A stretch of DNA of 64,000 bases. Source: Saprospiraceae bacterium (GTDB taxonomy: Bacteria; Bacteroidota; Bacteroidia; Chitinophagales; Saprospiraceae). The notes under the pieces were generated by a model, which saw only the letters and a program-made list of their open reading frames with translations, did not search any database and was not told the DNA's origin. The DNA lies in assembly GCA_019187225.1 (NCBI GenBank), contig JABAQQ010000018.1, positions 124,001-188,000 of the forward strand, written 5' to 3'. Below are positions 12,176 through 31,024 of the stretch, piece after piece; position 1 is the first letter of the stretch, and every line of letters begins with the position of its first letter. The position numbers and the translations under genes were made by a program.

Positions 12176-12179
12176 GGTA

Positions 12180-13582: not shown

Positions 13583-13586
13583 GGCA

Positions 13587-14459: not shown

Positions 14460-14510
14460 AAAATCTGGTTGAAAAAATTTAGATGAATGACTTTTCTCTG
14501 AAAAACAAGG

Positions 14511-14518: not shown

Positions 14519-14639
14519 TCCCCCCCCTCCATTTCTTCACCACCCCTTTTTTTCGCAAAATCCCCGATTTTCCCCCACGCTTTTTGCGCGACCTTTGCCC
14601 CGGTTTTTTATTCAAAAGACACTCTTAAGGCACGAAAAA

Positions 14640-16075: not shown

Positions 16076-16492
16076 CTACAATATATCTACGATGATCACG
16101 AACTCCGAGGCAGAACCACCCGGACACACCGAAGCGAGTACGCAGCGGTAAGTGGTGCCGGAAGCGAGACCGCTTAAGTATTTAGTCGTACCGTACTCGG
16201 TGTTGTCGAAAACCAGTTCGTTTGTGCTGAGATCGAATACCTTCAGGCGGTAGGCTCCCGCGTCGGTCACTGCGGCCCACGACAAGGAAGCGGTGGTGCT
16301 GCCCGTTCTTTCGCCGGAGAAGGATGCAGGAGCGGGGAGCGTACAGGTGAGGGCATTGGGGGCGGGTTGCGAGAGACTCGTTTTCGCTGTGTTCTGCGCC
16401 ATTTCTCCGGTTTGGAGTTTCGTGCCGAAGGCGGACAGCAGGTACGCGAGGGCGCCCGGGAGCAACAGCGTTGAAAAAAATGAATGCTTCAT
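16076..16492 (-). CDS. Small fibronectin type III domain protein
   Basis: A 138-residue exported protein made of a signal peptide, a short linker and one fibronectin type III domain (APASFSGERTGSTTASLSWA; AYRLKVFD; YLSGLASGTTYRCVLASVC). Fn3 domains mediate surface adhesion or carbohydrate contact. The ATG at 16492 is preferred to one 33 bp upstream because the hydrophobic segment then sits at the usual distance. No T9SS tail is visible. It is convergent with the helical gene (17 bp between stops). Confidence 0.7.
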   Translation of the reverse strand: MKHSFFSTLLLPGALAYLLSAFGTKLQTGEMAQNTAKTSLSQPAPNALTCTLPAPASFSGERTGSTTASLSWAAVTDAGAYRLKVFDLSTNELVFDNTEYGTTKYLSGLASGTTYRCVLASVCPGGSASEFVIIVDIL

Positions 16493-16593
16493 AGACGGAT
16501 GATTTTCAAGAATGAAAAATTTCATGTTCTACCTGGTTAGTAGCTATCATCCGGGCATCCATCACGCGAAAAGCGATTTTTTTTGAAAAAAAA

Positions 16594-16646: not shown

Positions 16647-19328
16647 ATGAAAACATTCGTTTTTTCTTTGCTCTTCTACCTCGTCGCTTTATTCCCCGTC
16701 ACAGGGCAGAATTTTGACCTGCCAAAGGCAGTAGCCTGTTTGGACAAATGCGAATCTTTCTTTCAGGCCCAGCCATACACCCCACTGCCCGATAGCCTGG
16801 CGCTTTGCCTTGCAGAAGCTGTAAAAAATTTGAAATCAACTGGCCAGGTTTTCATTGCACTTTACCTCCGGAGCATGTATTCCCACGCCAATCAAATGGC
16901 GAATATTGGCTCTCTGCGCCAAGCGGCCAATGAGTTTCGGGTCATCGACTCTATTTTGCAGTCATTTCCCGCGACAACATTAGTAGTACGCAATATTGCT
17001 CAGACCCAAAACCAGATGTCTATCGTTTTAATGCACCTTTTCGAGTTGGATGAAGCCAGGTTGTACAATGCGAAAGCCCTGGCCAACTTTGAAAAAGGAA
17101 ATCTTCCGGAAGGAGTATTTCTCGCATTGGTTAGTAAGAGTGTGCTTGCACAATCAAGCGGAAACATCAGTGAAGGATTGTACTGGGCGGAACAAGCGCT
17201 TGCCCATTGGCGGACGATTCCCGATATCCCACCCGCCCGGCGCCTCGACCGGCTTAGCGCCGAAAGACTGAAATACGCTTATTTACTTGACTTGGCCGAC
17301 AGCATTGCTCATGAAGACGGTCAACAATCAGCGTTGCCTCAATTCCGTGCAGCACTTCAGGGCCTGCAAAATGTGCTTGTTGAAACAACTCAATACGACA
17401 GCCTGAGTGAGGATGTTAAAACTGCTGCAGCGTCCCTTGTCTTTAGCATTCAGCAATGTTTTTCAAATCTCTGCGCCGTCGAACCTGCCTGGGCCGATAG
17501 TGTCCTGCGTTATCAGCAGTACTTAACTGAAAAAGGTGTGAATGCCGGTAATGCGGTGCCCTACTTCGGTTTGACGGAGGCATTATCGGCGCTGGCATAT
17601 GCTGAAAAAGGAGAATGGGCAGATGCTTACAGATTAAGTCTACAAAGTTGCAGACATTATGGTTATCCTGCTTTCGATATCTTTTACGATAAACCGTTGA
17701 GCCCTATACAAATCCAGCAAATACAGGAAAAATATGCTATTATCCAAACGTTGCGCTTTCAAGCCAGGATACTTCAAATGCATGAAGGCGACCTGCGTGC
17801 TCATAGGCAGGCGTTGTTCGTATATGAACAAATCTTTCGGGTGCTCAACGAACTGCGCTTGAGCTTCCTCTCGGAAAGCAGCATGGAACTGTCTACCGAA
17901 CGCTTCGCCTCCATTTACCATGAAGCTGCTTTGGCTGCCATTGATTTGTACAGGCAGTCAGGACGGGCTGAATATTTTGAAAAGGCTTTTAATTACGCTG
18001 AAAAAGGTAAAAGCTTTGCGTTGCGCAGCGCTCTCCGCCGCCGCGTGGAAGACAATACCGTGTTCGAAGAAGAGCGGAAGCTTCGCGATAAATTAAGAGG
18101 GGCGGGATTGGTTTATCACAGAAATCCCAACTCGGCGCAGCTGGCCATTTTAGACAGCGTTTACAAGGAAATACAGAATTTGCGGGAAAAAGTTAAAAAG
18201 AACAACCCGCGCTACTACTCGGAGCAAATCGGCGAAGACGAAGTGACACTGGACTTGGCACGCCAGAAGTTGGTGAACGACGACTCGACGGCGCTCATAG
18301 AATTTTCTGTCGGGAACGATTCCACGCTCGTAATGGCAATTACCCGATCTCAAACCTACTGGAGCGTGGTCAAACACCCGAAAAACTGGTCGCAAACGCT
18401 CAATGAATACTGCCAGGCGATTTTCACGCAGAATGAAGATTTCGCCAAAGGCTACGACGTGTACAAGGTGTTGCTTTCTGAAATGCTGGAAAACCGCCTG
18501 CCGCCCCAAGTTGACCGCCTTATCATCGTCCCCGACGGAAATCTGCGAAAAGTGCTGTTCGAAAGCTTGCTCGACAAACCAATAAAGGCCAGTCAAGGCT
18601 ATGACCAATTATCATATTTATTGCGCCGCTACGCATTGTCTTACCAATACTCACTGACGGCCTACAAATATGCCGAAGAAATCAAGCGCAACCCAACCCA
18701 CTCCATCGGCGCTTTCATCGGAAAATACGAAGGAGAGAAACCCACATTTTTGCGTTGCGCAGACCACTCGATCCCCCATCTCGCAAACGCGGCACGCAAC
18801 GCGACGGATATGTGCGGAAAAAAGGCAGAGCCTTTTGAAGCCGCGGCCGAGGCCGATTTCATGCGGCAGGCAAGCCAATTTGACGAGTTGTTTTTTGCGA
18901 TGCATGGCTGCCTCCACTCTTCCGACCCCTTGGAGTCAAGCATATTGTTCACAAAAGACCCAAGCGGCGACGGACGACTCACAGTGAGCGAAGTGTTGAC
19001 CTTGCCGCAAAATCTGAACGCCCGACTGGTGGTCTTCGGTAGCTGCAACACCGCTAGCGGATTGCTCCTCAGGGGCGAGGGCATCATTTCTTTGGCGCGT
19101 GCTTTTGCCTATGCAGGTGTGCCCGCTACATTGGCGACTACTGCCGTGCTGCCAGATAAAAAGGAGACCTCGAATCTGCTGACTGCCTTTCACCAAAATT
19201 TGTGCAAAGGAATGAAAAAAGACCGGGCGCTGGCAGAAGCTAAAAGTGCGTTGATGAATGAAGAACACCCATACTACTGGGCCAATTTCATCCTCATCGG
19301 AGATCCCGCGCCGATGAACGAAAAGTGA
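16647..19328 (+). CDS. Secreted TPR-CHAT protease-like protein (module 1)
   Basis: An 893-residue protein: signal peptide (ending VTGQ), a helical TPR-type region (about 30-500), a coiled coil (LRDKLRGAGLVYHRN; NLREKVKKNN), and a C-terminal CHAT domain. CHAT is a caspase/separase-like fold (clan CD). Seen: the candidate dyad His753 in FFAMHGC and Cys800 in VVFGSCNTASG, then GEGIISLARAFAYAGVPAT, all in the expected order. Known TPR-CHAT proteins cleave partner proteins on a trigger. It faces tail-to-tail a membrane anti-sigma-like gene whose stop is 26 bp away. The signal peptide predicts action outside the cytoplasm. CHAT homologues can be inactive, so activity is inference. Confidence 0.85.
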   Translation: MKTFVFSLLFYLVALFPVTGQNFDLPKAVACLDKCESFFQAQPYTPLPDSLALCLAEAVKNLKSTGQVFIALYLRSMYSHANQMANIGSLRQAANEFRVIDSILQSFPATTLVVRNIAQTQNQMSIVLMHLFELDEARLYNAKALANFEKGNLPEGVFLALVSKSVLAQSSGNISEGLYWAEQALAHWRTIPDIPPARRLDRLSAERLKYAYLLDLADSIAHEDGQQSALPQFRAALQGLQNVLVETTQYDSLSEDVKTAAASLVFSIQQCFSNLCAVEPAWADSVLRYQQYLTEKGVNAGNAVPYFGLTEALSALAYAEKGEWADAYRLSLQSCRHYGYPAFDIFYDKPLSPIQIQQIQEKYAIIQTLRFQARILQMHEGDLRAHRQALFVYEQIFRVLNELRLSFLSESSMELSTERFASIYHEAALAAIDLYRQSGRAEYFEKAFNYAEKGKSFALRSALRRRVEDNTVFEEERKLRDKLRGAGLVYHRNPNSAQLAILDSVYKEIQNLREKVKKNNPRYYSEQIGEDEVTLDLARQKLVNDDSTALIEFSVGNDSTLVMAITRSQTYWSVVKHPKNWSQTLNEYCQAIFTQNEDFAKGYDVYKVLLSEMLENRLPPQVDRLIIVPDGNLRKVLFESLLDKPIKASQGYDQLSYLLRRYALSYQYSLTAYKYAEEIKRNPTHSIGAFIGKYEGEKPTFLRCADHSIPHLANAARNATDMCGKKAEPFEAAAEADFMRQASQFDELFFAMHGCLHSSDPLESSILFTKDPSGDGRLTVSEVLTLPQNLNARLVVFGSCNTASGLLLRGEGIISLARAFAYAGVPATLATTAVLPDKKETSNLLTAFHQNLCKGMKKDRALAEAKSALMNEEHPYYWANFILIGDPAPMNEK

Positions 19329-19354
19329 ACGGAGAGGATAGCGGCGTTCCCGCA

Positions 19355-20200
19355 TCACTTCACGCCGCAGCCATCGAGCCAGCGCAACAGATGAGCAGGC
19401 AGCAAGTATCTGACGTTTTCCTCTTGCATCACCTTTCGCGCTTCCTCGCACCTGCTATTGCAAGCATGGGCGAACACAAGCAAGGCCATTATTTGCTTTG
19501 TTTTGTAGCGAGGGTTCTGTCTCACTACTTCGAGATACCGCACAGCCAGTGTGGGGTCGCCTTCGGGCAGGCAAATGTTCAACGCCCCGATGACTAAACA
19601 CCGCCGGGGATACTTCGCTAAAACAGAGTCATGCTCCGACAAGAATTGATTCCCGATACGAAGTGCCTCTGAGTATCCGGCGTAGTCTCCTCTTGCAAAA
19701 TTGTTTTCAATCTCCTCCCCTTCTCTGCCGGCTATCGGTTCTTTGGGAATATAACGCAGCCATAAAGTGTCACGTATGCAAGGGATAGGTATAGACGGGG
19801 ATGTTAGAGACATTCTCCGCCATGGTAAAACGATATCAAAGGTGTCGGGCAGGCGCGGCTGTAAAAGTTTGAGTTCATCCACTTCCCTTTGTCTTTCGGC
19901 CTTCCGTTTTTCCATCTTTTGGTAGGCCAAGCTTACCATCCAAAATAATCCCAATAACCCCAAACCAATCAATACCACCTGGCGGCGCAACCGCTGCCTG
20001 TGTTGATATCTCTTTTTTATCTCCTCTTTTTCCACCGTGCGGGCGCGATGAAACGCATCGGCTTCGGCCAGGCGTAGCGCCACTTCTTGAGCGAAGGCAT
20101 CGTCGGTACGCACCAAATCTTCGAAGACCTCTTTGTCGTCTTCGGATAGCGCTCCAGCGAGGAAATTTTCGAGCAGAATGTTTTTTTCGTTTTGGCTCAT
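19355..20200 (-). CDS. Membrane anti-sigma-like protein (module 1)
   Basis: A 281-residue single-pass protein. The cytoplasmic N-terminal 70 residues (LLENFLAGALSEDDKEVFEDLV ...) resemble the zinc-free anti-sigma helix bundle. A membrane helix spans about 74-93 (VVLIGLGLLGLFWMVSLAY), followed by a periplasmic part with TPR-like helices and two Cys-containing hairpins (VFAHACNSRCEEARK). It overlaps the sigma gene by 4 bp, so the two are translationally coupled. The pairing with a sigma factor makes anti-sigma the best reading; the periplasmic domain could be the target of the neighbouring CHAT protein (inference). Confidence 0.75.
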   Translation of the reverse strand: MSQNEKNILLENFLAGALSEDDKEVFEDLVRTDDAFAQEVALRLAEADAFHRARTVEKEEIKKRYQHRQRLRRQVVLIGLGLLGLFWMVSLAYQKMEKRKAERQREVDELKLLQPRLPDTFDIVLPWRRMSLTSPSIPIPCIRDTLWLRYIPKEPIAGREGEEIENNFARGDYAGYSEALRIGNQFLSEHDSVLAKYPRRCLVIGALNICLPEGDPTLAVRYLEVVRQNPRYKTKQIMALLVFAHACNSRCEEARKVMQEENVRYLLPAHLLRWLDGCGVK

Positions 20201-20943
20201 GGCCTCGCTTGGTTTGGGTTTTTAAATCGTTCAATCAGTGCGTTCAATTCTTTTCGACACTCGGAGGCGATGTTTCTCACGGTGTCTGGATTGTTGAAGT
20301 TCAATTTTTTCTGTTCCGATTCAATGACTTCGATCAATTCTTCCAGTTTGAAGGCATAACCATCTTCTGACCGCTGGTATACGCGTTCTTTTGTAAAATC
20401 AACAATCGCTTCGTAGGGAAACCCCATATCGTCCCGAAGACTCAGCACATAATAGCATCGGTAGTTGGAAAGACGAAACTGATTCAACGCCTCATCGAGC
20501 AAGCCGTTGGAATACTGCGACATCAGGCCGTTCAGTTTATCGTGAACATCTGAGGCAAATCCTTTAAGCAATTCGTCAGAGGGCGCGTTTTCATTGGGTT
20601 TGTCCGGTTTGCTCTTATTAGTAGCGTTTCGGCGAGCATATCTCACGCAGGTATAAAGAAAAATTTTGTTAAAATAAGTTTTCACGCTGCTTTTTTCATC
20701 GAATCGCCCAGCCTTGATGTTGCTCACAAGCACCCAACAAGCATCCAAATAAGCCTCCTCCCTGTCGCGCTTGTCTGGAAGTATCCAAATAAAAGGATTC
20801 TTGTCTGTCAGATCGCGGTATGCTTCAAATAAACGATTTTCAGTCCTTCGCACCTCTGCTTCCTTTCCGTTTTGAAGTACGGCGGCAATCGTTTGGTCTG
20901 AATGACTTGGGCTCCCGGTAAGAAATGCCACCAATCGTTTCAT
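20197..20943 (-). CDS. ECF-like RNA polymerase sigma factor (module 1)
   Basis: A 248-residue sigma-70-type protein. The sigma2-like part runs about 35-105 (RLFEAYRDLTDKNPF; AYLDACWVLVSNIKAG; SVKTYFNKIFLYTCVRYARR). The C-terminal part has a weak sigma4-like HTH (RLSNYRCYYVLSLRDDMGFPYEAIVDF). It is longer than usual ECF factors (about 170-200). Coupled by ATGA to the anti-sigma-like gene. The minus-strand promoter TTG-18-TATGTTTG at 20997-20969 is a clean housekeeping match, so expression need not be autoregulated. High divergence in region 4 makes promoter specificity unpredictable. Confidence 0.75.
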   Translation of the reverse strand: MKRLVAFLTGSPSHSDQTIAAVLQNGKEAEVRRTENRLFEAYRDLTDKNPFIWILPDKRDREEAYLDACWVLVSNIKAGRFDEKSSVKTYFNKIFLYTCVRYARRNATNKSKPDKPNENAPSDELLKGFASDVHDKLNGLMSQYSNGLLDEALNQFRLSNYRCYYVLSLRDDMGFPYEAIVDFTKERVYQRSEDGYAFKLEELIEVIESEQKKLNFNNPDTVRNIASECRKELNALIERFKNPNQARP

Positions 20944-20968
20944 GTGGAAAGAAATCTGGTTATCAGGA

Positions 20969-20997
20969 CAAACATAAGAATTTCTTCCTCATGCCAA
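20969..20997 (-). promoter_or_regulatory. Promoter of sigma/anti-sigma operon 1
   Basis: On the minus strand: TTG (20997-20995), 18 bp, TATGTTTG (20976-20969). It is a close match to the Bacteroidota consensus and lies 26 bp upstream of the sigma gene ATG. Confidence 0.6.
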
Positions 20998-21042
20998 GCA
21001 CAGGAATATTCTTAACTCCACTCGTAAGTCTTATATCGTAAA

Positions 21043-22233
21043 TCACACACCCCTTCTCCTCACCTCTTCCAATATCAGCGCCAACTCCCTCCCCGCGTCC
21101 CCCGTGACGGAAGTATTCTCCTGGGCCCGGCGGATGAGGTAAGGGATCACTTCCCGGATCTGACCGTAAGGGACGTATTTGCCTACGCGGAAGCCGGCGG
21201 CGGCGAGGTTGAAAGTCACGTTGTCGCTCATGCCGAAAAGTTGGCTGAACAAGGTGTGGGGGTGATCATGGGCAATGCCTTTTTTGTCCATGATCTCTAC
21301 CTGGAGCATGGCGCTTTCGGCGTTGTGGCTGGCGTTGCAAAAGGCCATCGTATCGAGGTGGTCGAGGCAGAAGCGGACAGCGGTATTGTAATGATCGTCA
21401 GTAGCATTTTTATCCGGGTTGATGGGGTTATCGTAGCCGAACTCAGCGGCATAATGGGCTTCCTTCTCCATGTAAGCGCCGCGCACGAGTTTGGCGCCGA
21501 GCATAAAGCCCGCCTTCCTGGCACGGTCGTAACTCTCGATGAGGAATTGCAGGCGGTCTTTGCGGTACATCTGAAAGGTATTGTACACGACCACCCGTTT
21601 TTTATTGTAGCGTTTCATCATGAGCCATACCAGGTGATCAATCGTATCCTGGATCCAGCTTTCCTCGGCGTCAATAAAAACGGCTACTCCTTTGTTGGCG
21701 GCGTGGTAACACACAGCATCTATACGCTTCAGCACATTGCGGTACTCGCTCAGCTCGTCGCGGGTGAGGGTTGGGCGGTGCTGTACTTTTTCGAGCAGAT
21801 GGAAACGCGCCAGCCCGGTCACTTTGGTACTGACGACCGGTATGTGTTGCGAGCGGGATGCGTAGTCAATGGCGCGGATGTTCTCGTTCATCGTGTGATT
21901 GAAATCGAGTTCCATCTCTTTGCCCTCCGCGCCGTAGTCGAGGATGGTCAGGACATTGTGCGCTGCAAGCCGGTCGATGTTTTTCTGGCTGTCAAGTAAA
22001 GTGGTGCCGCCGCAGAACTGTTCGAATACGGTGTTTTTTACGATGGTTTCGGCAGTAGGGATACGGTTTTCCACTGCCCACAGGGCTAGTTGGGATCCAT
22101 ATTTTACCAGCCAGGGCTTGTTCATCATGCGGAACAACCAGGCAGATTTTTTCAGTTCGCGGTTGGTGAGGTGCGAAAAGGCGATTTCGGTGTTGGAAAA
22201 GTCAACTGCGGGCATAAAAGATATTGTTGTCAT
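21043..22233 (-). CDS. Proline dehydrogenase
   Basis: A 396-residue FAD enzyme that oxidises proline to pyrroline-5-carboxylate, the first step of proline catabolism. Seen: the barrel strands ISTKVTGLARF-type region (VVSTKVTGL), AVFIDAEESWIQ, GAKLVRGAYMEKE (a family hallmark) and the C-terminal substrate-binding helix YLIRRAQENTSV (R-R-x-x-E-N). Length fits stand-alone PRODH rather than bifunctional PutA. It lies alone between the sigma operon and aroE, with a tandem repeat just upstream of its start. Confidence 0.92.
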   Translation of the reverse strand: MTTISFMPAVDFSNTEIAFSHLTNRELKKSAWLFRMMNKPWLVKYGSQLALWAVENRIPTAETIVKNTVFEQFCGGTTLLDSQKNIDRLAAHNVLTILDYGAEGKEMELDFNHTMNENIRAIDYASRSQHIPVVSTKVTGLARFHLLEKVQHRPTLTRDELSEYRNVLKRIDAVCYHAANKGVAVFIDAEESWIQDTIDHLVWLMMKRYNKKRVVVYNTFQMYRKDRLQFLIESYDRARKAGFMLGAKLVRGAYMEKEAHYAAEFGYDNPINPDKNATDDHYNTAVRFCLDHLDTMAFCNASHNAESAMLQVEIMDKKGIAHDHPHTLFSQLFGMSDNVTFNLAAAGFRVGKYVPYGQIREVIPYLIRRAQENTSVTGDAGRELALILEEVRRRGV

Positions 22234-22335
22234 TAGAGGTCATTAAGGGTCACTGGAGGGTCATTAAAGGTCATTATAGAGGTAATTAAGAGACATTGGA
22301 GGGTGCGGAAATTACTATAAATTACCCTTAATGAC
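22231..22335. repeat. Degenerate ggtcattaa tandem repeats
   Basis: Units such as ggtcattaa, gggtcactggag, ggtcattaa, aggtcattatag, aggtaattaa and gagacattggag alternate over about 100 bp, from the proline dehydrogenase start to the aroE stop. They occupy the whole intergenic gap. Confidence 0.7.
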
Positions 22336-22336
22336 T

Positions 22337-23134
22337 TCAACTACCCCAGATTTCCCATGCTGCTTCGGCTTGTAAGTGCAACATTTCCAAGCCGTTTTTT
22401 ACGGTGCAGCCCCGGGCTTTGGCGCGCTGCAAAAGTAAGGTTTCGGCGGGATTGTAAACGAGGTCGTACACGAAATGTTGGGAGCTTAGTCGCTCGAACG
22501 GCAAATCGGGGCAAGTACCGGTGTGCGGCGACATTCCGAGCGGGGTGGTGTTGATGATGAGGTGGTAGACGGTGGACGGTAGACGGTGGACGGTTTCATA
22601 AGAAATCTGGTTTTCACTATCGGGATTACGCGAAACGAACCGATATGGGATACCGAGTTTTTTCAAAACGTAAGCGACGGCTTTGGAGGCTCCGCCTGTA
22701 CCTAAGATCAATGCTCCCACCCACCCTTCACCGCCCCCCGTCCACCATCCACTGTCCCCCCCCCGCCGTTCACCGTCCACCGTCCACCGTCCGCCATCTA
22801 CCGCTTTCAGTGACTTTTCAAAACCTGTTACATCCGTATTGTATCCTTTAAGTTGCTGATTTTCAATTTTTATACAATTCACTGCCCCTACGGCGCGGGC
22901 GGTCTCATCCAACTCGTGCAGAAAGGGAATGACCGTTTCCTTGTGCGGGATCGTCACATTGAGGCCGCACAGGTCGGGATGTTGGGCTAACAATGCCGGC
23001 AGGTCGGCGATATTTTCCAGGGGAAAAAGTTCATAACGTGCATCGGCAATGCCTTCGCGGGCGAATTTTTCCGAAAAATATTTTTGCGAGAACGAATGCC
23101 CAAGCGGGAAGCCGATAAGTCCGAAAAGGCGCAT
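22337..23134 (-). CDS. aroE: Shikimate dehydrogenase
   Basis: A 265-residue enzyme that reduces 3-dehydroshikimate with NADPH in aromatic amino acid synthesis. Seen: GFPLGHSFSQKYFSEKF (shikimate-binding Ser pair), NVTIPHKETVIPF (catalytic Lys), the nucleotide loop GTGGASKAV, NTTPLGM, YDLVYNP, and the C-terminal GLEMLHLQAEAAWEIW. Unusual: between the catalytic and nucleotide domains it carries a low-complexity insertion (AVDGGRWTVDGE, GGDSGWWTGGGEGW) encoded by a (ccaccgtc)-type repeat, and a second copy of the repeat encodes VHRLPSTVYH near the C-terminal part. The frame is intact, so the enzyme is probably active. Confidence 0.9.
   Translation of the reverse strand: MRLFGLIGFPLGHSFSQKYFSEKFAREGIADARYELFPLENIADLPALLAQHPDLCGLNVTIPHKETVIPFLHELDETARAVGAVNCIKIENQQLKGYNTDVTGFEKSLKAVDGGRWTVDGERRGGDSGWWTGGGEGWVGALILGTGGASKAVAYVLKKLGIPYRFVSRNPDSENQISYETVHRLPSTVYHLIINTTPLGMSPHTGTCPDLPFERLSSQHFVYDLVYNPAETLLLQRAKARGCTVKNGLEMLHLQAEAAWEIWGS
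22562..22600. repeat. gacggtggacggt repeat inside aroE (copy 1)
   Basis: Tandem ggtagacggtggacggt units lie within the coding frame of aroE, encoding roughly TVHRLPSTVYH. The same unit recurs at 22719-22803. Confidence 0.75.
22719..22803. repeat. ccaccgtccaccgt repeat inside aroE (copy 2)
   Basis: About 85 bp of C-rich tandem units (caccgtccaccgtccacc and variants) are inserted in frame between the two AroE domains and encode a Gly/Trp/Asp-rich linker. Confidence 0.75.
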
Positions 23135-23270
23135 GTGCAGTTTTTGGGCAAAATTCGTCTTTACCGGGACATTAAGGCGTCGCTGCGAAGGGATTTGCAG
23201 ATTTTTTGAGGCTTAAATGTTGATTTTCTGGATTTTTTACACAAAACTTTGCACAAACAAAAATGAGAGA

Positions 23271-23301
23271 GCCTTTCCGACGCGTTCGGGAAGGCTTTTT
23301 T
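23271..23301 (+). terminator. Terminator-like hairpin upstream of LOG gene
   Basis: The arms gcctttccga and tcgggaaggc enclose a 5-nt loop, followed by six T. The U-tract is on the plus strand, ahead of the LOG gene start at 23328. It would therefore end a short upstream transcript or attenuate LOG expression. A similar stem occurs at 24590-24621. Confidence 0.6.
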
Positions 23302-23327
23302 ATCCTAACATTTTAATATTGTGCAAT

Positions 23328-24086
23328 ATGGATAATCACGTAAAAGAAGCGAGCGAATCCGCCTTACATACGCCGGAGAACGGCGCTGCCCCCAAACGCA
23401 AAATGAAAGAATGGAAAAGTTTGCGCGGCGAAAACGCCTGGACGATGTTCAAAGTCATGGCAGAATTTGTAGACGGCTTCGAGACACTGAACAAGATCGG
23501 CCCCTGTATTTCGATTTTCGGCTCGGCCCGCACCAAACCCGGAACGCATTACTACGAACTGGCCGTCAAAGTCGCCAGCCGCCTCACAGAGGAAGGTTAC
23601 GGCATCATTACGGGTGGCGGACCGGGCATCATGGAAGCGGGCAACAAAGGCGCCTGGATGAAAGGAGGGCCGTCGGTGGGATTGAACATTGACTTGCCGT
23701 TCGAGCAAAATCACAATACGTTCATTGCTCCCGACAAAAACCTCACGCACCGGTACTTTTTTGTACGCAAGGTCATGTTCGTCAAATACGCGCAAGGCTT
23801 TGTGGTCATGCCCGGCGGTTTCGGCACGCTCGACGAGCTCTTCGAGGTGCTGACGCTCGTTCAGACCAAAAAAATATCGCCCGTGCCGATCGTACTGGTC
23901 GGAAAGGAGTTTTGGGAGGGCCTGAAAAACTGGATCGTAGAGATCATGCTCGAGCGCCACAAAAACATCAACGCCGAAGACCTCAACCTGTTCCTCGTGA
24001 CCGACGATCCCGACGAAGTGGCGCAGTACATCAACCGCTTCTATGCCGACAACGTGGAAGAACTTTCTCCCAATTACGCGTTGTGA
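23328..24086 (+). CDS. LOG family protein (cytokinin riboside phosphorylase-like)
   Basis: A 252-residue LOG/TIGR00730 family protein. Seen: the Rossmann start ISIFGSARTKPG, GYGIITGGGPGIMEAGNKGA, and the signature PGGFGTLDELFEVLT (family motif PGGxGTxxE). Members hydrolyse nucleotide 5'-monophosphates to free base and ribose phosphate; in plants this makes cytokinins. The ATG at 23328 is chosen because the upstream open frame runs through a terminator-like hairpin. The N-terminal 30 residues are charged and not conserved. It stands alone, followed by a hairpin-rich gap. Confidence 0.88.
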   Translation: MDNHVKEASESALHTPENGAAPKRKMKEWKSLRGENAWTMFKVMAEFVDGFETLNKIGPCISIFGSARTKPGTHYYELAVKVASRLTEEGYGIITGGGPGIMEAGNKGAWMKGGPSVGLNIDLPFEQNHNTFIAPDKNLTHRYFFVRKVMFVKYAQGFVVMPGGFGTLDELFEVLTLVQTKKISPVPIVLVGKEFWEGLKNWIVEIMLERHKNINAEDLNLFLVTDDPDEVAQYINRFYADNVEELSPNYAL

Positions 24087-24092
24087 TCAACC

Positions 24093-24184
24093 GGATATTG
24101 GATTTTTTGATATTGGACGTTGGATTTTAAGACTTGTGGAGCACTCATTCAGTCTGATGTCCAATGTCAGAAAATCCAAGATCC
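24093..24184. repeat. Inverted ggatattggatt repeat
   Basis: The arms 24093-24120 and 24157-24184 are 28 nt each with four mismatches. The 12-mer ggatattggatt is also present at 5771-5782, at the start of the radical SAM gene, so it is a dispersed element. Confidence 0.75.
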
Positions 24185-24216
24185 AGAAACCTGCAAACAA
24201 TTGATTTTCAATAAAA

Positions 24217-24256
24217 AACAGGCTTCGGAAGGGCGACCTTGAAGCCTGTTTTTATT
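24217..24256 (+). terminator. Intrinsic terminator
   Basis: A perfect 10-bp stem (aacaggcttc / gaagcctgtt) with a 14-nt loop, followed by a T-rich run. It lies 130 bp after the LOG gene stop and is probably its terminator. Confidence 0.75.
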
Positions 24257-24508
24257 TTTTTGAAATTTTTTTCAGGAAACCTGATAACGTTTCCGGTAAT
24301 TCCGACATAAATAAGCAAACACCAAATGAAAACGCGGATTGGAGATAACTAAAAACCTCCGCCGGATGCGCATAAACTTATGCAAATCTGCAATAGCGGC
24401 GACGACTCCAACCAAATTGAAAACACCCGATTAACCACCTCCTGAAAACCAAATCCCAGAAGCCGCCCCGGAGACCACCCCTCAAACCACCCATCCCAGA
24501 GCGCCAAC

Positions 24509-24557
24509 ATTCGCCGGGAAGCCAAGTCCAACCTCAATCGAGGCTTCCCCGGCGAAT
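24509..24557. repeat. GC-rich hairpin
   Basis: The arms attcgccgggaagcc and ggcttccccggcgaat pair with a single bulged base around an 18-nt loop. There is no U-tract. Confidence 0.65.
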
Positions 24558-24589
24558 ATGGCGAAACAGCCAAAGAGAAAACAACGCGA

Positions 24590-24621
24590 GCCTTTCCGAT
24601 TCCCCCGGAAAGGCTTTTTTT
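24590..24621 (+). terminator. Intrinsic terminator without an obvious gene
   Basis: The stem gcctttccg / cggaaaggc is followed by seven T on the plus strand. No plus-strand gene ends nearby, so it implies an unannotated short transcript from the preceding 300 bp or a stray element. It resembles the stem at 23271. Confidence 0.6.
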
Positions 24622-24654
24622 ATTGGCGTCAGCAATACAAGCCTGGTAAAATGA

Positions 24655-24708
24655 ATCCCGAATTTTTGGAATATCCGCTCAGAAGACGCTTTCTCCAAAA
24701 ATTCGGGA
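24655..24708. repeat. Perfect 16-bp inverted repeat
   Basis: atcccgaatttttgga (24655-24670) and its exact reverse complement (24693-24708) have 22 nt between them, 32 bp from the stop of the anti-sigma-like gene on the minus strand. It may serve as that gene's terminator. Confidence 0.7.
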
Positions 24709-24739
24709 TGAACTCAGGTTTATGCAAAAGGAAAAGTCG

Positions 24740-25687
24740 CTACTGCGGCAATTTCTGCAACATATTCTCCGCCAAAACCTTGAATTGGCGGTTGTTGGGC
24801 GCATCGAGATAGGCCTGAAATGCCTGACGTGCCGCCTGGTATTGGCCGGTTCCGGTGTTTGATAGCCCCAGGTAGAATTTCGCCTGAGTCTGATAATTGC
24901 CGGTTTGCGAGGAAACCTGCTGAAAAACTTTTGCAGCTGCTTCGTATTCCCGGTTGCCGAGCAACGAGACGCCGTAATAGAATTGATATTCCATGTTGCC
25001 GGGAGCGCTTGCCACAACGGGTTTGAAGGCCTTTACTGCTTTTGCATAATCTTTTTGGTCGTAGAGAATAAAAGCGTTCATGGCCATTTCTTTTTCCTCA
25101 TCAATACCTCCGGCGCTGTTGAATTCTGTTTTGTTGTTGAAGTGACGGAAATTGGCGATCACATCGAGGCGAAGCGAGTCGCGTAAAGCGCGTTGTTTTC
25201 TTTGCTGATCCCGTTGTTGTTGGAGCGCTTTTTCGGCTTGTTGTTTGTCTTGCTCGTCTGGGTGCTGTGGTTTCGTATTTTCGGCAGGGAAGGAGTCGCG
25301 CAAAGGAGGGGGCGCCTGAGGTATGAAGCCGGGGTTTTCCTGGGTATCCTGAGTTGCGGCGATGGGGCTATCGCTACCGTATGGCAGGTCGGGCCGGTTG
25401 ATAAACCAAACAGCTACGAGAAGGGCCAAAATGACGGCAGCCAGGGCGGTAAGTTGCAGCATTATCCGTCTGAACCGAAACCGGCGCTCCGCTTCGCGCA
25501 GTTTGACCCTGATCGCTTCCGTTTCTAATGAAGCGTTTCGAACGGCATGAGAAAGGGATTGTTGCCAGGCGAATTCCGCTGCAGCTTCGGGGTCATTCGC
25601 CAGGATTTGGCGGAGTTCGGCAGCTTCGGCTTCGGAAAGCGAGTGGGCGAACCAGGATTCAATCAAATGTTCAGTGCGGGTGTTCAT
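24740..25687 (-). CDS. Membrane anti-sigma-like TPR protein (module 2)
   Basis: A 315-residue single-pass protein laid out like the module 1 protein: N-terminal helical anti-sigma-like part (HLIESWFAHSLSEAEAAELRQIL), a membrane helix at about 75-95 (MLQLTALAAVILALLVAVWF), a Pro/Gln-rich periplasmic linker with a Gln/Arg coiled coil (QQQRDQQRKQRAL), then three TPR-like repeats (AFILYDQKDYAKAVKAF; YEAAAKVFQQV; QYQAARQAFQAYL). It starts 27 bp after the sigma gene. The TPR repeats could bind the TPR region of the CHAT protein. Anti-sigma function is inferred from pairing and architecture. Confidence 0.78.
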   Translation of the reverse strand: MNTRTEHLIESWFAHSLSEAEAAELRQILANDPEAAAEFAWQQSLSHAVRNASLETEAIRVKLREAERRFRFRRIMLQLTALAAVILALLVAVWFINRPDLPYGSDSPIAATQDTQENPGFIPQAPPPLRDSFPAENTKPQHPDEQDKQQAEKALQQQRDQQRKQRALRDSLRLDVIANFRHFNNKTEFNSAGGIDEEKEMAMNAFILYDQKDYAKAVKAFKPVVASAPGNMEYQFYYGVSLLGNREYEAAAKVFQQVSSQTGNYQTQAKFYLGLSNTGTGQYQAARQAFQAYLDAPNNRQFKVLAENMLQKLPQ

Positions 25688-25714
25688 TGCGTTGCATTTT
25701 GCAGGGATTAAGGG

Positions 25715-26254
25715 TTAGGATTTTCGCATTTTGTCGAGACAGCGTTTCCGGAGTTGCCGCACCACTTCGGCACTGGCGTAGCCAAGAATGTCGGCGATCT
25801 CCTGGCTGCTCAAACCTTCTTTGTACGTCAGGATTATGATGCTGCGGCAAGGTTCTCCAAGCGCATCCACTGCTGCCCAAAGCCGGTCATTGTCTTGTTG
25901 TTCAATCATTTGCGTTTCAGTGCCCGGGTCGTTTTCATCAGAATGGGGCATTTTTTCATCCCCCGGCATATCCATGCGTTTTTGTTTTCGAAGGAAAGCC
26001 TGCATGAGGTTTTTTCCGATGCCAAAGACATAGGTACACAAGGTGCCGGCCAGAGTGGTAAGTCTGCCCGATTCGATGTTGAGCAACATGATGACCACTG
26101 CATTTTGAAAAATATCAGTGAGATCGTGCGCCCTGATGCCGTAATTGTCTTTGCCCCAGCGGAGGAACTTCGGTCGGCAGCCGGCATATATTCCGGCCAA
26201 AGCCCGGTTCTGGTCGCGTTGGAACTCCTGCAGTTCGTCCCTTTTTTCATCCAT
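25715..26254 (-). CDS. ECF RNA polymerase sigma factor (module 2)
   Basis: A 179-residue ECF sigma factor. Region 2: HDLTDIFQNAVVIMLLNI ... GTLCTYVFGIGKNLMQAFLRK; region 4: AVDALGEPCRSIIILTYKEGLSSQEIADILGY-like HTH followed by VRQLRKRCLDKMRK. The ATG at 26254 is chosen; the upstream frame lacks an ATG. The minus-strand box TACTTTTG (26319-26312) lies 58 bp upstream. It is divergent from the membrane protein/CHAT operon across a 215-bp region that holds promoters in both directions. Confidence 0.88.
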   Translation of the reverse strand: MDEKRDELQEFQRDQNRALAGIYAGCRPKFLRWGKDNYGIRAHDLTDIFQNAVVIMLLNIESGRLTTLAGTLCTYVFGIGKNLMQAFLRKQKRMDMPGDEKMPHSDENDPGTETQMIEQQDNDRLWAAVDALGEPCRSIIILTYKEGLSSQEIADILGYASAEVVRQLRKRCLDKMRKS

Positions 26255-26311
26255 AGATTTTGTCAGCCGAAGGCCTGCCGTTTTTGGATTATTTTGCGGC
26301 AGCGTGGCGGG

Positions 26312-26319
26312 CAAAAGTA
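26312..26319 (-). promoter_or_regulatory. Promoter box of sigma/anti-sigma operon 2
   Basis: Minus-strand TACTTTTG, an exact TAnnTTTG match, 58 bp upstream of the sigma gene ATG. No clear -33 element is seen. Confidence 0.45.
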
Positions 26320-26412
26320 GAGACGGGGTTTTGGCAGTTTATGCCGTTGAGCAAAAAAATGTTAACAACAGCGCACTATTTTTTTAAAAAATACATTTTG
26401 TTTCGCAGCTTC

Positions 26413-26420
26413 TACATTTG
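26413..26420 (+). promoter_or_regulatory. Promoter box of the CHAT operon 2
   Basis: Plus-strand TACATTTG about 50 bp upstream of the ATG at 26470. An upstream TTTTG ends at 26400, closer than usual, so the -33 assignment is uncertain. Confidence 0.45.
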
Positions 26421-26469
26421 CGGACTTTTATCCCATTCAGGGCGTTTTTTCACCAAAAAAAATTTTTAA

Positions 26470-28161
26470 ATGAAGGCAACTCTGCGATTCAGCACACACA
26501 CGCTCCCTTTTTTCCTGTTCTTTTTCTGCGTCCTGCCGATGCTTTCCGGGCAAAACACCGGCCAGCGCATCCGTGTATACCAGGGTGAGGCGATACGCGG
26601 CAGTTTCGACAGCGCGGGCGGCACCCTTATCATTCAAAACGAGGTCCCCCTCACTTTTCAGGTATTTGATTCGTTGGGTACCGTTCCCAACCAGGCCTGC
26701 GAGGGAGAGCTGGACCAGGATTGCGGCTGGTACAAAGGGTTCTGGCTCATGGGCGACGGCAATTACATGAAATTCGAAGAAAACCTGCGCACGCTCGACG
26801 CCGACTCCCGCATCATCAGAAATTACAGCTACCCGCAGGCTGGTACTTATCAACCTGTGGTCTACCTGACTGAAAAATACCACAATGACAATCCGCCGGA
26901 AGCAGCCCGCGTGACCATCAACAAGACGGCAGGCGCCGGGAACTTTTCTGAAACGCCCATCCGACTGGCAGCTCCTGAGCGCAAAGTTGACATTGATTTC
27001 AACCACGCCCCGCGCGTCAAATACCCGACTAATTTCGTCGTGTCGTATCGAAATGACGATAATAATGCACGCGTGTTGTTTTATTACAATGCCCTTGGAA
27101 GGGCGGGCTCCGCATCTATCGCACCTGTCAGTCTGATGCGGCACCGCGTCAGTGAATACGCCAATTATCACAATACGGGTGTAGGGCCTGTGGTCACCGA
27201 GGATATATTATCTTCTGCTACAGGCGCCTCACCGCTGTATACGGGCACAATACTCGATGCCTTGAACAGCAAATTCAAAAGCTTTTTGGCGTACAATGTG
27301 GACCAGGTGGATTCCGACATCACGCCGGGGCGTACGGAACTGCGCGTGTTTCCCGTTTTGGAATCGTTCGCGATGACGGATCTGCCCGGCGATTCACTGC
27401 CCGGCAAACCGATGTTGTTTGCCGCCGTTTTGATCGGAACGTCTCCCGTATCCACGGATGATCCTGCTTACAGCAAACTGGTAGGCACTGCGAAGGGATT
27501 ACTGGGAGATACCATACCGGACAACCTTCAGTTGTCGCCCAACAGCGATTTGTTCATTCGCGGCATCGAGATGCTGGAATTGAACATGCTGCGCAGTCAC
27601 GACCCAAACAGTCTTACCGTAACGGACATCCGGGATCTGGGCAACGGCCAATACAGGGCTTTTTTCCGCATGATCATATGCAATGAAGGCTCAGCGCCGG
27701 AAACAAAAATCTCCCTGATTTTCAATGACCTCACCGGAGGGAAATACGGCGCGCGTCCCGACATCACGAACGTAACCGCCGGAACCTGGACCGGTGGCTC
27801 CAATGGAGCGCCGTGGGAGGTGCCCCTGCTCAATTTTCAAATTTCCGGTGTGCCTGAAAATTACAAGCCATCCTGCAAAAGCGTGCTGTTCTCCATTGAT
27901 ACGGACCTGGACGGAATACAAAGGCTCTACCAGGAAACCCCGAGGGCTTTAAATGTGTGCGTCCGTTTTTCTTCCGGCGCCGGTGAGTGCAGCGAAAATG
28001 AACCCCTGCCTTCGGGCACCTACCAGGACAATGGCAAATATCTGCCGGCGGAAGAAGAACCCTGCGATCTGCTGACACTGATCTTAGCGGCACTTGCCGC
28101 GCTCGGCATTATCGGATTATTGTTCGGCTACCTGCTCAAAAAGAAAAAGCAAGCGTCGTAA
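26470..28161 (+). CDS. Exported single-pass protein upstream of CHAT gene (module 2)
   Basis: A 563-residue protein with a signal peptide (ending MLSGQ), a long beta-rich extracytoplasmic region including a PKD-like start (GTLIIQNEVPLTFQVFDSLG; YSYPQAGTYQPVVYL), and a C-terminal membrane helix (LLTLILAALAALGIIGLLFGYLL) with a Lys-rich tail. It is thus anchored with its bulk in the periplasm or outside. It is first in an operon with the TPR-CHAT gene 64 bp downstream. It could be the sensor or substrate of the CHAT protein; no known family is recognised for the body. Confidence 0.72.
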   Translation: MKATLRFSTHTLPFFLFFFCVLPMLSGQNTGQRIRVYQGEAIRGSFDSAGGTLIIQNEVPLTFQVFDSLGTVPNQACEGELDQDCGWYKGFWLMGDGNYMKFEENLRTLDADSRIIRNYSYPQAGTYQPVVYLTEKYHNDNPPEAARVTINKTAGAGNFSETPIRLAAPERKVDIDFNHAPRVKYPTNFVVSYRNDDNNARVLFYYNALGRAGSASIAPVSLMRHRVSEYANYHNTGVGPVVTEDILSSATGASPLYTGTILDALNSKFKSFLAYNVDQVDSDITPGRTELRVFPVLESFAMTDLPGDSLPGKPMLFAAVLIGTSPVSTDDPAYSKLVGTAKGLLGDTIPDNLQLSPNSDLFIRGIEMLELNMLRSHDPNSLTVTDIRDLGNGQYRAFFRMIICNEGSAPETKISLIFNDLTGGKYGARPDITNVTAGTWTGGSNGAPWEVPLLNFQISGVPENYKPSCKSVLFSIDTDLDGIQRLYQETPRALNVCVRFSSGAGECSENEPLPSGTYQDNGKYLPAEEEPCDLLTLILAALAALGIIGLLFGYLLKKKKQAS

Positions 28162-28187
28162 AAACAACTGCATCATCAACTCTTAAT

Positions 28188-28224
28188 AACCCGGATCGGA
28201 TAAAACCTTCCGGGTTTTCATTTT
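28188..28224 (+). terminator. Attenuator-like hairpin before CHAT gene 2
   Basis: The stem aacccgg / ccgggtt with a 15-nt loop is followed by a T-rich run ending at the CHAT ATG (28226). It may reduce CHAT expression relative to the upstream gene. Confidence 0.5.
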
Positions 28225-28225
28225 T

Positions 28226-31024
28226 ATGGGCAAACAATTCATTTTTCTCGTCTCCTTCCTCGTACTCGCCGCCCCCGTTCGCGCACAAAAAGATTCATTG
28301 GGAGCAGAACAATTTGTTGTTCGCGCCAAAATGTTCCTGAAACAAGGCAATTTGGACAGCGCCGTTCACTACCATTCGCAAGCGTTGAAGTTTTTCAGGG
28401 AAAAAGACCTCCTGATGCCCTGGCTCCGGAGTTTCACCATACTTGCCTACACCTGGGCCGGCGATCTGAAACAACCGTTCAGGGCTGTGGAACTGGTCGA
28501 AACGGGATTGCGCGACCAATGGCGCGAACCCGTCAGTCATAAGGAATGGGAACAACTGGCAATGAATTACCTCGCTGCAGGGCATGTTTTGCGTTCGAAT
28601 GCGGGTGATTTTAATGGAGCCAAAGCGTATTACGAAAAAGCGAACGCCGTCTTTATGGGCCCGATGGAAGAAAAAGGCGACAAGGTGGCCCGTTACCTGT
28701 ATCACAATCTCGCGAATATTTACTCCCGTCACGGCGATTACGAACGGGCGATCAGCCTGCTGAAGCGAAGCCTGGAATACAATCGCCGCTTTCCGGCTGC
28801 CAGGGTAATTGACCACGGTGACCTTGCCATAGCGCTCAACGACACGGAACGCCATGCGGAAGCGCTGGCCATCGTTCGGCAGGGGTTGGCAACAGAAGGT
28901 CTCAGCAGCGAATTAAAGATCAGCCTGTATCAAAATGAAGCGAGCTCTCTTTTTGAATTGAAACAGCCGGAAGCAGCACTGGTTTCCCTGGAAAACATCC
29001 CTGCCCTGGTACCAAAGATGGTGGAGGAAAAAGGTAGTTTGGATGAACAATATTATCTGATGCAATACCACGCCTCAAAGGCCGAAATCCTTGCAGCGTT
29101 GAAACGATACGACCAGGCCCTGGAGAATTATCAAAAGGCCATCGAAATAGGCACAGAATATTGGGGCACAGAAAAGCGCCGGGAGATTGCCAAAGTATTC
29201 ATTCAGATCGGGAATATCAGGTTGGAGCAGGAGCGTTACGAGGCAGCGTTGGCGGATTTTCACCATGGATTGCAGTGTTTACCCATCCGTTTCAAGGGCG
29301 ACGACAGCACTCAACTTCCCGAAGCCGGATCATTTATCAGTGAAAATGCCATAATAGAGGGATTAGAAGGGAAAGCGCGCTGTTTTTCGGCCCTCGCCAA
29401 TCCGGTCAAAGCCCTCGAATGCTACGAACTCATTCCCTTTGCCGAGGCACGGCTTCTTTCCACCCATGCTTATGAATCTTCCTCTTTGCGTGCCCTCGAT
29501 GAAAGTCGTCCGCGTTTGGAACAGGCCATAGATATTGCCTGGGGGTTGTTCGCAAAAACAGGCGACCCGCAATACGCACAACGCGCATTCCGCCTGACCG
29601 AACAGGCGCGCGGGATTTTGTTGCTGCAAACCATGACGAAAGCGCAGGCCGATTACAAACTCGACGACAGCATACGCAGCCGGGAAAATGCCCTGCACGC
29701 AAAAAAGGTATGGTGCGAACAGCAAATCGCGGCAGAAAGGATAAAAGGCACGGCAGGCGATTCCATGCGTTTGGAAAAGTTACAAAGCGATCTCTGGAAG
29801 ATGGTCGAGGAAGAAAACCGTTTCCGGGCGCAACTGAAAAAAGATAATCCCGGCTATGAAAAATTGCTCGACGGGATCCGGTTCCGGTCTGCGTCCGATG
29901 TGCCGGCGTTGTTGCGCCCCAGGCAAGCCTTCATCAATTATTTTTTGACGGAAAATGCCGTGTACGTATTTACCATTGGCCACGATGGCGTACTCTTCTG
30001 GCACAAAGCGGAGCTGCCTGTACATTTCCGCGACTCCACTGTTCAAAAATTCATCGAGTATTTAGCCGGAGGCGAGGGAAAAGGCGACGAAGCGGCAATG
30101 GCCGCAGACCGTTGGTTCAAACGCACAGCCGCCGATCTGTACCAACTTTTAATGGCGCCCGTATTACCGGCAGTGAACAGGAATACGGATGCAGTGGTCA
30201 TTGCTCCGGATGATGTGCTGGCTTTTCTTCCCTTCGAACTGTTGTTGTCAGAGCCGTCGCAGGCAACATGGCCGGAACTGCCTTTTCTGATCAAAAAATA
30301 CAGCGTCAGTTACGCGTATTCCGCCACCCTCCTCGACCGGCAACAGGCCAATATGCGCGAGCACAGCGCCGCAAACCGCATACCCTTTGCGGGTTTTGCC
30401 CCGGCCTATAAAAACGCCCGCGACCCGCAAACCGGGAATTTGCTGTATCCCATATCGGGTATGGAAAGCATGGTGCAAAAAGTGTACGCCCTGCTGGGCG
30501 GAAAAGTATTCAGGGAGGACGAAGCGAACGAAACGGAGTTCGGTCGTACGGCGCCTGTGTGCCGGGTATTGTTGCTGGCCATGCACGGCTTCGCCAATGA
30601 AAACGAACCGGCTTTGTCGCGACTGCTTTTCGGCCATCCTTCCAGAACCGGCACGCCAGATAATGTGCTTTATACCAATGAGTTGCAAATCTCTTATCTT
30701 CCCGTTGATCTCGTAGTGCTGAATGCTTGCTATACCGGTTTCGGCAAACTGCACCGCGGTGAAGGGGTCTACAGCCTGACCCGCGCGCTCACCGCCGCGG
30801 GGGTGCCGGCCACTGTGATGAGCATCTGGCAACTCAGCGGATTCTCTTCTCCGGTTTTGATCGAGGCTTTTTTTCAAAACCTGAAAAATGGAATGCCGAA
30901 GGATGTTGCCCTGCAACAGGCAAAAATAGAGCTGCTCCGCAACCCTGAATACGATGCCGTCGTGCATCCCGCTTTTTGGGGCGGCTTGCTGGCCACCGGA
31001 GATATGTCGTCGTTGCAATTTTGA
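28226..31024 (+). CDS. Secreted TPR-CHAT protease-like protein (module 2)
   Basis: A 932-residue protein: signal peptide (ending VRAQ), multiple TPR repeats (for example NLDSAVHYHSQALKF, DYERAISLLKRSLEYN, RYDQALENYQKAIEI, RYEAALADFHHGLQC), a helical linker, and a C-terminal CHAT domain. The candidate dyad is His787 (LLLAMHGFANE) and Cys835 (VVLNACYTGFGKLHRGEG), followed by SLTRALTAAGVPATVMSIWQ. Architecture matches the module 1 protein, but sequence identity looks modest, so this is an old duplication or independent recruitment. It is probably in one operon with the anchored protein upstream and regulated from the divergent region shared with sigma 2. Confidence 0.87.
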   Translation: MGKQFIFLVSFLVLAAPVRAQKDSLGAEQFVVRAKMFLKQGNLDSAVHYHSQALKFFREKDLLMPWLRSFTILAYTWAGDLKQPFRAVELVETGLRDQWREPVSHKEWEQLAMNYLAAGHVLRSNAGDFNGAKAYYEKANAVFMGPMEEKGDKVARYLYHNLANIYSRHGDYERAISLLKRSLEYNRRFPAARVIDHGDLAIALNDTERHAEALAIVRQGLATEGLSSELKISLYQNEASSLFELKQPEAALVSLENIPALVPKMVEEKGSLDEQYYLMQYHASKAEILAALKRYDQALENYQKAIEIGTEYWGTEKRREIAKVFIQIGNIRLEQERYEAALADFHHGLQCLPIRFKGDDSTQLPEAGSFISENAIIEGLEGKARCFSALANPVKALECYELIPFAEARLLSTHAYESSSLRALDESRPRLEQAIDIAWGLFAKTGDPQYAQRAFRLTEQARGILLLQTMTKAQADYKLDDSIRSRENALHAKKVWCEQQIAAERIKGTAGDSMRLEKLQSDLWKMVEEENRFRAQLKKDNPGYEKLLDGIRFRSASDVPALLRPRQAFINYFLTENAVYVFTIGHDGVLFWHKAELPVHFRDSTVQKFIEYLAGGEGKGDEAAMAADRWFKRTAADLYQLLMAPVLPAVNRNTDAVVIAPDDVLAFLPFELLLSEPSQATWPELPFLIKKYSVSYAYSATLLDRQQANMREHSAANRIPFAGFAPAYKNARDPQTGNLLYPISGMESMVQKVYALLGGKVFREDEANETEFGRTAPVCRVLLLAMHGFANENEPALSRLLFGHPSRTGTPDNVLYTNELQISYLPVDLVVLNACYTGFGKLHRGEGVYSLTRALTAAGVPATVMSIWQLSGFSSPVLIEAFFQNLKNGMPKDVALQQAKIELLRNPEYDAVVHPAFWGGLLATGDMSSLQF

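Follow-up and report, generated by a model that had tools for sequence, protein, structure and literature searches.

What function is served by a secreted protease of the CHAT family that is encoded beside an extracytoplasmic function (ECF) sigma factor and a single-pass membrane protein? This arrangement occurs twice in a 64,000-nucleotide stretch of DNA (the window, meaning the whole stretch analyzed), which is part of contig C15 in the 7.18 Mb, 73-contig genome of a Saprospiraceae bacterium. Our analysis suggests that these modules are an outside-cell, CRISPR-free version of the CRISPR protease-to-sigma relay, recurrent in this genome and in many Bacteroidota relatives. We give an even chance to the more specific reading that each module is a trans-envelope unit in which CHAT would be the dedicated periplasmic site-1 protease for the membrane anti-sigma factor, with M50 or retropepsin proteases acting in later steps.

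Two modules in one window

All genes named in an earlier reading of the same DNA (the original prediction) were found where it had placed them. The parts of both modules are as follows:

16647-19328, + strand: CHAT1, secreted CHAT protease of 893 aa, His753/Cys800; Pfam CHAT at 1e-41, 143.7 bits against a gathering score of 24
19355-20200, - strand: anti-sigma-like protein of module 1 with a single transmembrane (TM) segment at about residues 71-93, tail-to-tail with CHAT1
20197-20943, - strand: divergent ECF sigma-like factor of module 1; TIGR02937 at 2.8e-5, below the curated cut-off; belongs to alignment A6
24740-25687, - strand: anti-sigma-like single-TM protein of module 2 with tetratricopeptide repeats (TPR), TM at about residues 75-93
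25715-26254, - strand: ECF sigma factor of module 2, with a longer TTG-start open reading frame (ORF) to 26314; TIGR02937 at 1.6e-19
26255-26469, no strand: divergent intergenic region of module 2, with conserved blocks
26470-28161, + strand: exported protein with a signal peptide, a C-terminal TM and a distant PKD-type match, just 5' of CHAT2
28226-31024, + strand: CHAT2, secreted TPR-CHAT protease of 932 aa, His787/Cys835; Pfam CHAT at 3.8e-46, 158.3 bits against 24

In module 1, CHAT1 lies tail-to-tail with a co-directional sigma/single-TM pair whose two ORFs overlap by 4 bases. In module 2 the equivalent pair is head-to-head with a two-gene stretch on the + strand, the gene at 26470-28161 and then CHAT2; the former sits within the module and is absent from the original description. 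The view that the differing layouts make a simple recent duplication unlikely was borne out, and recent tandem duplication was rejected on three grounds: the two CHATs are 22% identical, the modules are laid out differently, and the congeners G007 and G009 keep module 2 in synteny, at approximately 43% protein identity, with no module 1 in the short stretch examined there. In these two genomes no sigma or CHAT1 gene was found in the ~1.2 kb examined beyond the proline dehydrogenase gene; at an E-value limit of 1e-60, CHAT1 had no match in G007 and a single one in G009, 34% identical and ~250 kb away.

Sigma and CHAT genes occur together far above chance

The pairing could be a mere by-product, without functional meaning, of the variable, gene-rich regions that large Bacteroidota genomes contain, and both families are expanded in this genome, which holds 26 CHAT and 53 TIGR02937 matches. 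However, for 15 of these 26 CHATs a TIGR02937 match is no more than 5 kb away, where 2.5 such cases would be expected (P ~1e-9). With profiles built here, a sigma gene was found near 17 of the 25 long CHAT ORFs (over 550 aa), and 16 sigma pairs adjoin CHAT genes. When five congeners were added, 44 of 61 long CHAT ORFs had a sigma gene within 5 kb, against 5.9 expected, and 39 had an anti-sigma-like gene nearby (16+3+5+6+6+3). Because CHAT neighbourhoods had supplied the seeds of the sigma profile, the chance expectation was also calculated at double and triple sigma density; P was still 4e-12 at the latter. The 61 ORFs are not 61 independent cases, because G007 and G009 are close relatives.

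The original prediction would have been refuted if relatives lacked a conserved neighbourhood; such a neighbourhood is present both in the congeners and in named relatives. A scan of GTDB contigs listed 540 relatives, of which the best 80 were kept as named CHAT loci. A long CHAT ORF was obtained from 77 of them, and a sigma gene lay within 5 kb in 39 of these 77, many loci being truncated. Loci with both partners include Flavobacterium, Kordia, Winogradskyella, Moheibacter, Aquimarina, Fulvivirga, Roseivirga, Runella, Agaribacillus and Flavilitoribacter, as well as other Saprospiraceae and Bacteroidales genomes. Relative to the nearest sigma gene, 93 CHATs (one locus, L068/L121, being entered twice) were arranged tail-to-tail (32), head-to-head (26), or co-directionally with the sigma gene upstream (24) or downstream (11). 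Among 119 Bacteroidia genomes, CHAT occurs in 37 and a strong full-length anti-sigma profile match (E below 1e-24, >200 positions) in 14, 12 of which have CHAT, the exceptions being G074 and G090 (Fisher P 1e-5 with the genome of origin and 3e-5 without it). No fusion of CHAT, anti-sigma and sigma of the Rosetta-stone kind was found among the 7813 ORFs of the loci examined.

The repeated association on which the original prediction had drawn is thus far above chance, at approximately seven-fold enrichment. Together with the varied layouts, the class-wide spread, the phyletic co-occurrence and a module 2 that congeners have retained in synteny at that level of identity, this leaves the by-product account strongly disfavoured and highly improbable.

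Catalytic pair, export and fold of the CHAT proteases

Both window CHATs score above the gathering threshold of the family (PF12770) and carry the His/Cys pair exactly at the predicted positions, in columns that are invariant in the CHAT alignments A1 and A4; A1 omits two of the 26 CHAT matches of this genome, a contig-end fragment and a short one. A simple regular expression found the pair in 146 of 164 long CHAT ORFs, and the misses were not taken as dead enzymes because at least one of them, L046, belongs to A4, in which neither residue varies. The signal peptides expected on CHAT1 and CHAT2 both passed our test, which, like the TM calls, employs rough rules rather than a dedicated predictor, with a false-positive rate gauged on sigma and anti-sigma ORFs only. 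CHATs outside modules pass the same rules nearly as often (54/66), and many CHATs have a C-terminal TM.

The predicted structure of CHAT2 (mean predicted local distance difference test score 90.5, predicted template modelling score 0.89) has the TPR-CHAT protein of Craspase, Csx29, as its best fold match, followed by separase, whose protease fold superposes at 3.3 Å over 317 residues. CHAT2 is modelled with the TPR-CHAT fold and separase-like protease region of Csx29-type proteins. We also note a tandem array of at least six CHAT genes on a Bacteroidia metagenome-assembled contig (L109, 1-19955), with no sigma pair detected.

Identity of the sigma factors and of their membrane partners

An ECF-like sigma factor had been expected in each module. 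The module 2 protein exceeds the TIGR02937 cut-off (70.1 bits versus 42.9; 1.2e-19 for the 179 aa form); the module 1 protein falls under it, at 23.8 bits, and its assignment relies on membership of A6, of which 32 of 33 members, this one included, match TIGR02937 at E up to 0.01.

In the usual anatomy, an ECF sigma gene directly precedes the gene of its single-TM partner, which has a helical head in the cytoplasm, then a linker and, as a rule, a TPR domain in the periplasm. The TPR-CHAT protease encoded nearby bears a signal peptide and the invariant His/Cys pair, and is in many cases anchored in the membrane by its C-terminus. The module 2 membrane protein has a helical cytoplasmic N-terminus, a mostly disordered linker with one helix and a periplasmic TPR, and an AlphaFold2 model of the anti-sigma-like protein shows two short helices followed by a long one that runs through the TM. 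Weak zf-HC2 matches were obtained for 7 of 16 members of anti-sigma profile A2 (best 7.8e-4) and for 2 of 40 in anti-sigma alignment A5. Neither window protein has a FecR match in Pfam at an E-value limit of 1, and no known anti-sigma domain was listed in the fold search, which covered only the TPR half (mainly residues 190-315). We infer that the single-TM partner acts as anti-sigma factor and holds sigma at the membrane.

Promoter regions

ECF sigma factors often control neighbouring genes, and CHAT could thus be an output: the sigma/anti-sigma pair would itself sense envelope stress and then switch on the nearby protease and surface protein, whose targets would be other cells, phage or debris of the envelope. 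In line with this, surface-type or type IX secretion system (T9SS)-tailed proteins adjoin some CHATs, some sigma/anti-sigma pairs of the family have no CHAT in the stretch examined, and the module 2 orthologues have common conserved blocks between their divergent genes. In the region 26255-26469 the blocks GGCAAAAGTAG and AAAAAATGT.AACA are kept in all four aligned loci, two of which are near-identical, and a palindromic TGTTAACA is present in three of the four rows. The reverse strand of GGCAAAAGTAG reads TACTTTTG, which we take to fit the TAnnTTTG -7 element of Bacteroidota. No convincing upstream motif common to the paralogous modules was detected when 41 sigma genes were compared to 409 control upstream regions over ~3200 to 5900 words; TGTTAAC, present in 3/41 versus 3/409, is unconvincing. 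Against CHAT as an output, the tail-to-tail layout seen in 32 of the 93 CHATs requires a separate promoter.

Covariation between the anti-sigma periplasmic half and CHAT

We compared distances in 40 sigma/anti-sigma/CHAT triples from the G genomes (named loci left out, one CHAT per anti-sigma, a duplicate of one C26 gene dropped), which provide 137 within-genome pairs, 105 of them from the genome of origin, permuted within genomes. Among the ten pairwise comparisons made, distances of the periplasmic half of the anti-sigma tracked those of the CHAT domain (rho 0.32, p 0.001); those of the cytoplasmic half did not (rho 0.10, p 0.10). The periplasmic signal was retained without close pairs (rho 0.40, p 0.0005), without beta-type anti-sigmas (rho 0.40, p 0.0005) and without the genome of origin (rho 0.40, p 0.0085). 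A first, smaller test on 16 triples of the genome of origin had given a weaker value for the periplasmic half (rho 0.25, p 0.013). This covariation points to contact between CHAT and anti-sigma in the periplasm.

Contig C26 offers a natural partial swap. Its two modules have CHATs that are 72% identical and anti-sigma periplasmic parts that are 71% identical, with anti-sigma heads at 50% (74 gapped positions) and sigmas at 26%.

Both the restriction of the signal to the periplasmic half and the C-terminal TM that holds many CHATs at the membrane speak against CHAT as an output. We regard that account, which is the main rival to the site-1 protease reading, as possible but rather improbable.

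A candidate cleavage site in the linker

In A5, an alignment of 40 anti-sigmas, the best conserved linker column holds Arg in 34 sequences and Lys in 3, and the following column holds Ser (16), Gly (13) or Asp (4). Shuffled and realigned linkers reached at most 10 Arg in a column, against 31 in the real ones under the same settings. The Arg is not merely a TPR residue, since it was also seen, by eye, ahead of the non-TPR periplasmic domains of L009, L020 and L023. Separase cuts after Arg. Orthocaspases cleave after basic residues (PMC6426788). The linker Arg is a candidate scissile site.

Exported partner proteins and further proteases

Orthologues of the exported protein encoded at 26470-28161 adjoin the CHAT2 orthologue in five congeners (G006, G007, G009, G010 and G012). 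No family in Pfam matches it with an E-value of 1 or lower, and it gives a weak match (7e-8) to a profile of the PKD/DUF7619 partner proteins; in other modules the equivalent place is held by PKD/DUF7619/DUF7849 proteins, as assigned by Pfam, and a PKD-like exported protein precedes CHAT in a number of modules. This protein is a candidate sensor or second substrate.

Such proteins could even be the actual target: CHAT would cut the PKD-like membrane or surface protein encoded next to it, the product would be sensed by the TPR of the anti-sigma, and CHAT itself would never touch the anti-sigma. TPR domains do bind peptides, G012 retains the PKD-like/CHAT pair without a sigma pair, and 17 of 23 PKD/DUF7619 matches lie within 400 bp of a same-strand CHAT, a biased count in that 8 of the 17 are profile seeds and only loci around CHAT or anti-sigma genes were searched. 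Nevertheless, module 1 has no match to the PKD-like family, and both the linker Arg and the periplasm-specific covariation would be left unexplained, which makes this account an unlikely one.

Other proteases accompany the modules. A retropepsin-like aspartic protease of 145-156 aa directly follows or overlaps CHAT in six loci from Flavobacterium, Aquimarina and one further genome, identified by Pfam in L088 (7.7e-14) and by profile in the others:

L088, 12481-12918: retropepsin-like protease
L091, 12454-12891: retropepsin-like protease
L098, 12329-12766: retropepsin-like protease
L100, 11698-12135: retropepsin-like protease
L103, 12457-12894: retropepsin-like protease
L189, 1979-2449: retropepsin-like protease

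Another Flavobacterium locus, L085, has none after its CHAT. The retropepsin is possibly a later step of a proteolytic relay. In the genome of origin, M50 protease genes are present, and two modules include a gene for a signal-peptide-bearing protein with a C14 caspase domain (L018, 3969-5924; L021, 4328-6232). Another C14 caspase-domain protein is encoded close to a CHAT that lacks a sigma pair (L015, 6089-8079).

Proposed mechanism

In the site-1 protease reading, the TM protein would, as anti-sigma factor, keep sigma tethered to the membrane. CHAT would be activated by a signal that its TPR, the PKD-like protein or both perceive, and would then cut the periplasmic juxtamembrane linker, in many modules after the conserved Arg. 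The stump would be finished by intramembrane and cytosolic proteases (M50, and retropepsin in some flavobacteria), and sigma would be freed. We infer both the binding of CHAT to the anti-sigma and its cleavage.

The original prediction had proposed an analogue of Csx29/Csx30/sigma across the inner membrane. The export signals and catalytic pair of the CHATs, their Csx29-like fold, the ECF sigma and the single-TM partner agree with it, but several observations weigh against it and against the mechanism above. The matches of the putative anti-sigma proteins to a known anti-sigma domain, zf-HC2, are weak. Some CHAT genes have no nearby sigma pair and some sigma/anti-sigma pairs no CHAT in the stretch examined; the linker motif also occurs in anti-sigmas of the latter kind. 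The covariation test did not recover the expected coupling of sigma and anti-sigma head in the full set, and the first, smaller test had linked the head to the CHAT domain as well (rho 0.27, p 0.009), a signal that faded to the value given above in the larger within-genome test. As for the linker, the alignment-free excess of Arg is modest, and the module 2 anti-sigma of the window itself has Asn at the aligned position, with a Lys four residues earlier; its orthologues have Asn in 2/4 and Lys in 2/4. A Met-Gly-[Ala/Gly] variant was observed near the Arg position in the anti-sigmas of L175, L177, L178, L182 and L159, four from genome G020 and one from the genome of origin, and may mark another cleavage specificity. 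Finally, cleavage sites of Craspase are not conserved.

If the proposal is true, a function could be assigned to a large class of exported CHAT proteases, ECF sigma factors would have a new switching route through dedicated caspase-fold site-1 proteases, and the RNA-activated Csx29/Csx30/sigma relay would gain a plausible ancestry. With cognate pairs, catalytic Cys and candidate scissile Arg named, it is directly testable. On a broader and more tentative plane, at odds clearly below even, Bacteroidota may hold a large family of insulated trans-envelope relays in which a dedicated, often membrane-tethered, separase/Csx29-like CHAT in the periplasm is the site-1 protease for its own anti-sigma, in many cases after the conserved Arg. 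Secreted C14 caspases in some modules, and a retropepsin in some flavobacteria, would be additional cascade steps, and Csx29/Csx30/sigma would be a cytoplasmic, RNA-triggered offshoot of this more ancient switch.

Other genes of the window

A four-gene cluster on the - strand (11219-14615), ~2 kb before module 1, encodes a borderline CsgG-like protein (20.4 bits versus a cut-off of 20.8) and a DUF6175 protein (3.3e-56). A small protein with a weak fibronectin-III match (0.012) is encoded divergently from CHAT1 (16076-16525, - strand), and two DUF5122 beta-propeller proteins with T9SS sorting tails lie ~30 kb apart (8856-10466 and 40609-42291). In this genome, four CHATs have a gene for a protein of approximately 464-487 aa no more than ~6 kb away (window 14595-16058; L010 11033-12478; L019 11627-13021; L029 682-2109); these four proteins start alike (L..F..FL.SPFF, by eye only), and the window copy has no convincing Pfam family.

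Comparison with known systems

Separase has a similar protease fold and is a eukaryotic cohesin protease; its cutting after Arg parallels the linker Arg. FecI/FecR cell-surface signalling pairs an ECF sigma with an inner-membrane regulator, but the window anti-sigmas have no FecR domain and Pfam reveals no TonB-dependent receptor among the seven module genes. In the Calp system (CalpL/CalpT/CalpS) a protease frees an ECF sigma from its inhibitor, as proposed here; the Calp protease is a Lon-type CRISPR effector, and here it is an exported CHAT. In EACC2-caspase neighbourhoods a caspase domain, an ECF sigma and a DUF1822 TPR protein adjoin, with other adaptors and effectors, and a CHAT paired with a membrane anti-sigma is absent from the portions of that account consulted (PMC8195603). 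Judged by titles and the openings of abstracts, the mostly open literature searched contained no description of a sigma/membrane anti-sigma/CHAT module in Bacteroidota, which does not in itself prove novelty.

The closest functional likeness is to the type III-E CRISPR CASP system, composed of the TPR-CHAT protease Csx29, the inhibitor Csx30 and CASP-sigma (PMC10028731; PMC11106740). The likeness lies in the protease-to-sigma relay proposed here; in contrast, our CHATs carry a signal peptide, the candidate inhibitor spans the membrane once and has its TPR in the periplasm, and this one genome has 16 sigma pairs beside CHAT genes. The modules are not type III-E by membership, because Cas7-11 linkage is lacking in this genome: RAMP matches occur only on contig C36, which has no CHAT match, and the window is on C15 (CRISPR RNA arrays were not searched), so CRISPR linkage was rejected for this genome. 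The three RAMP-family matches on C36 (20287-26671) lie within 6.4 kb in open frames of 344, 625 and 364 aa, and are perhaps an ordinary type III CRISPR locus. No PDB entry named Csx30 was present among the matches listed (60 of 126) for anti-sigma profile A2.

In the RseA/DegS/RseP/sigma-E and RsiW-type systems, a single-pass anti-sigma is cut at a periplasmic site 1 and an ECF sigma is released, three features that the modules would have in common with them. A parallel to DegS/RseA has also been drawn for the type III-E relay (PMC10028731). The difference would reside in the site-1 enzyme, which there is a cell-wide PDZ serine protease and here would be a caspase-fold CHAT encoded beside each anti-sigma.
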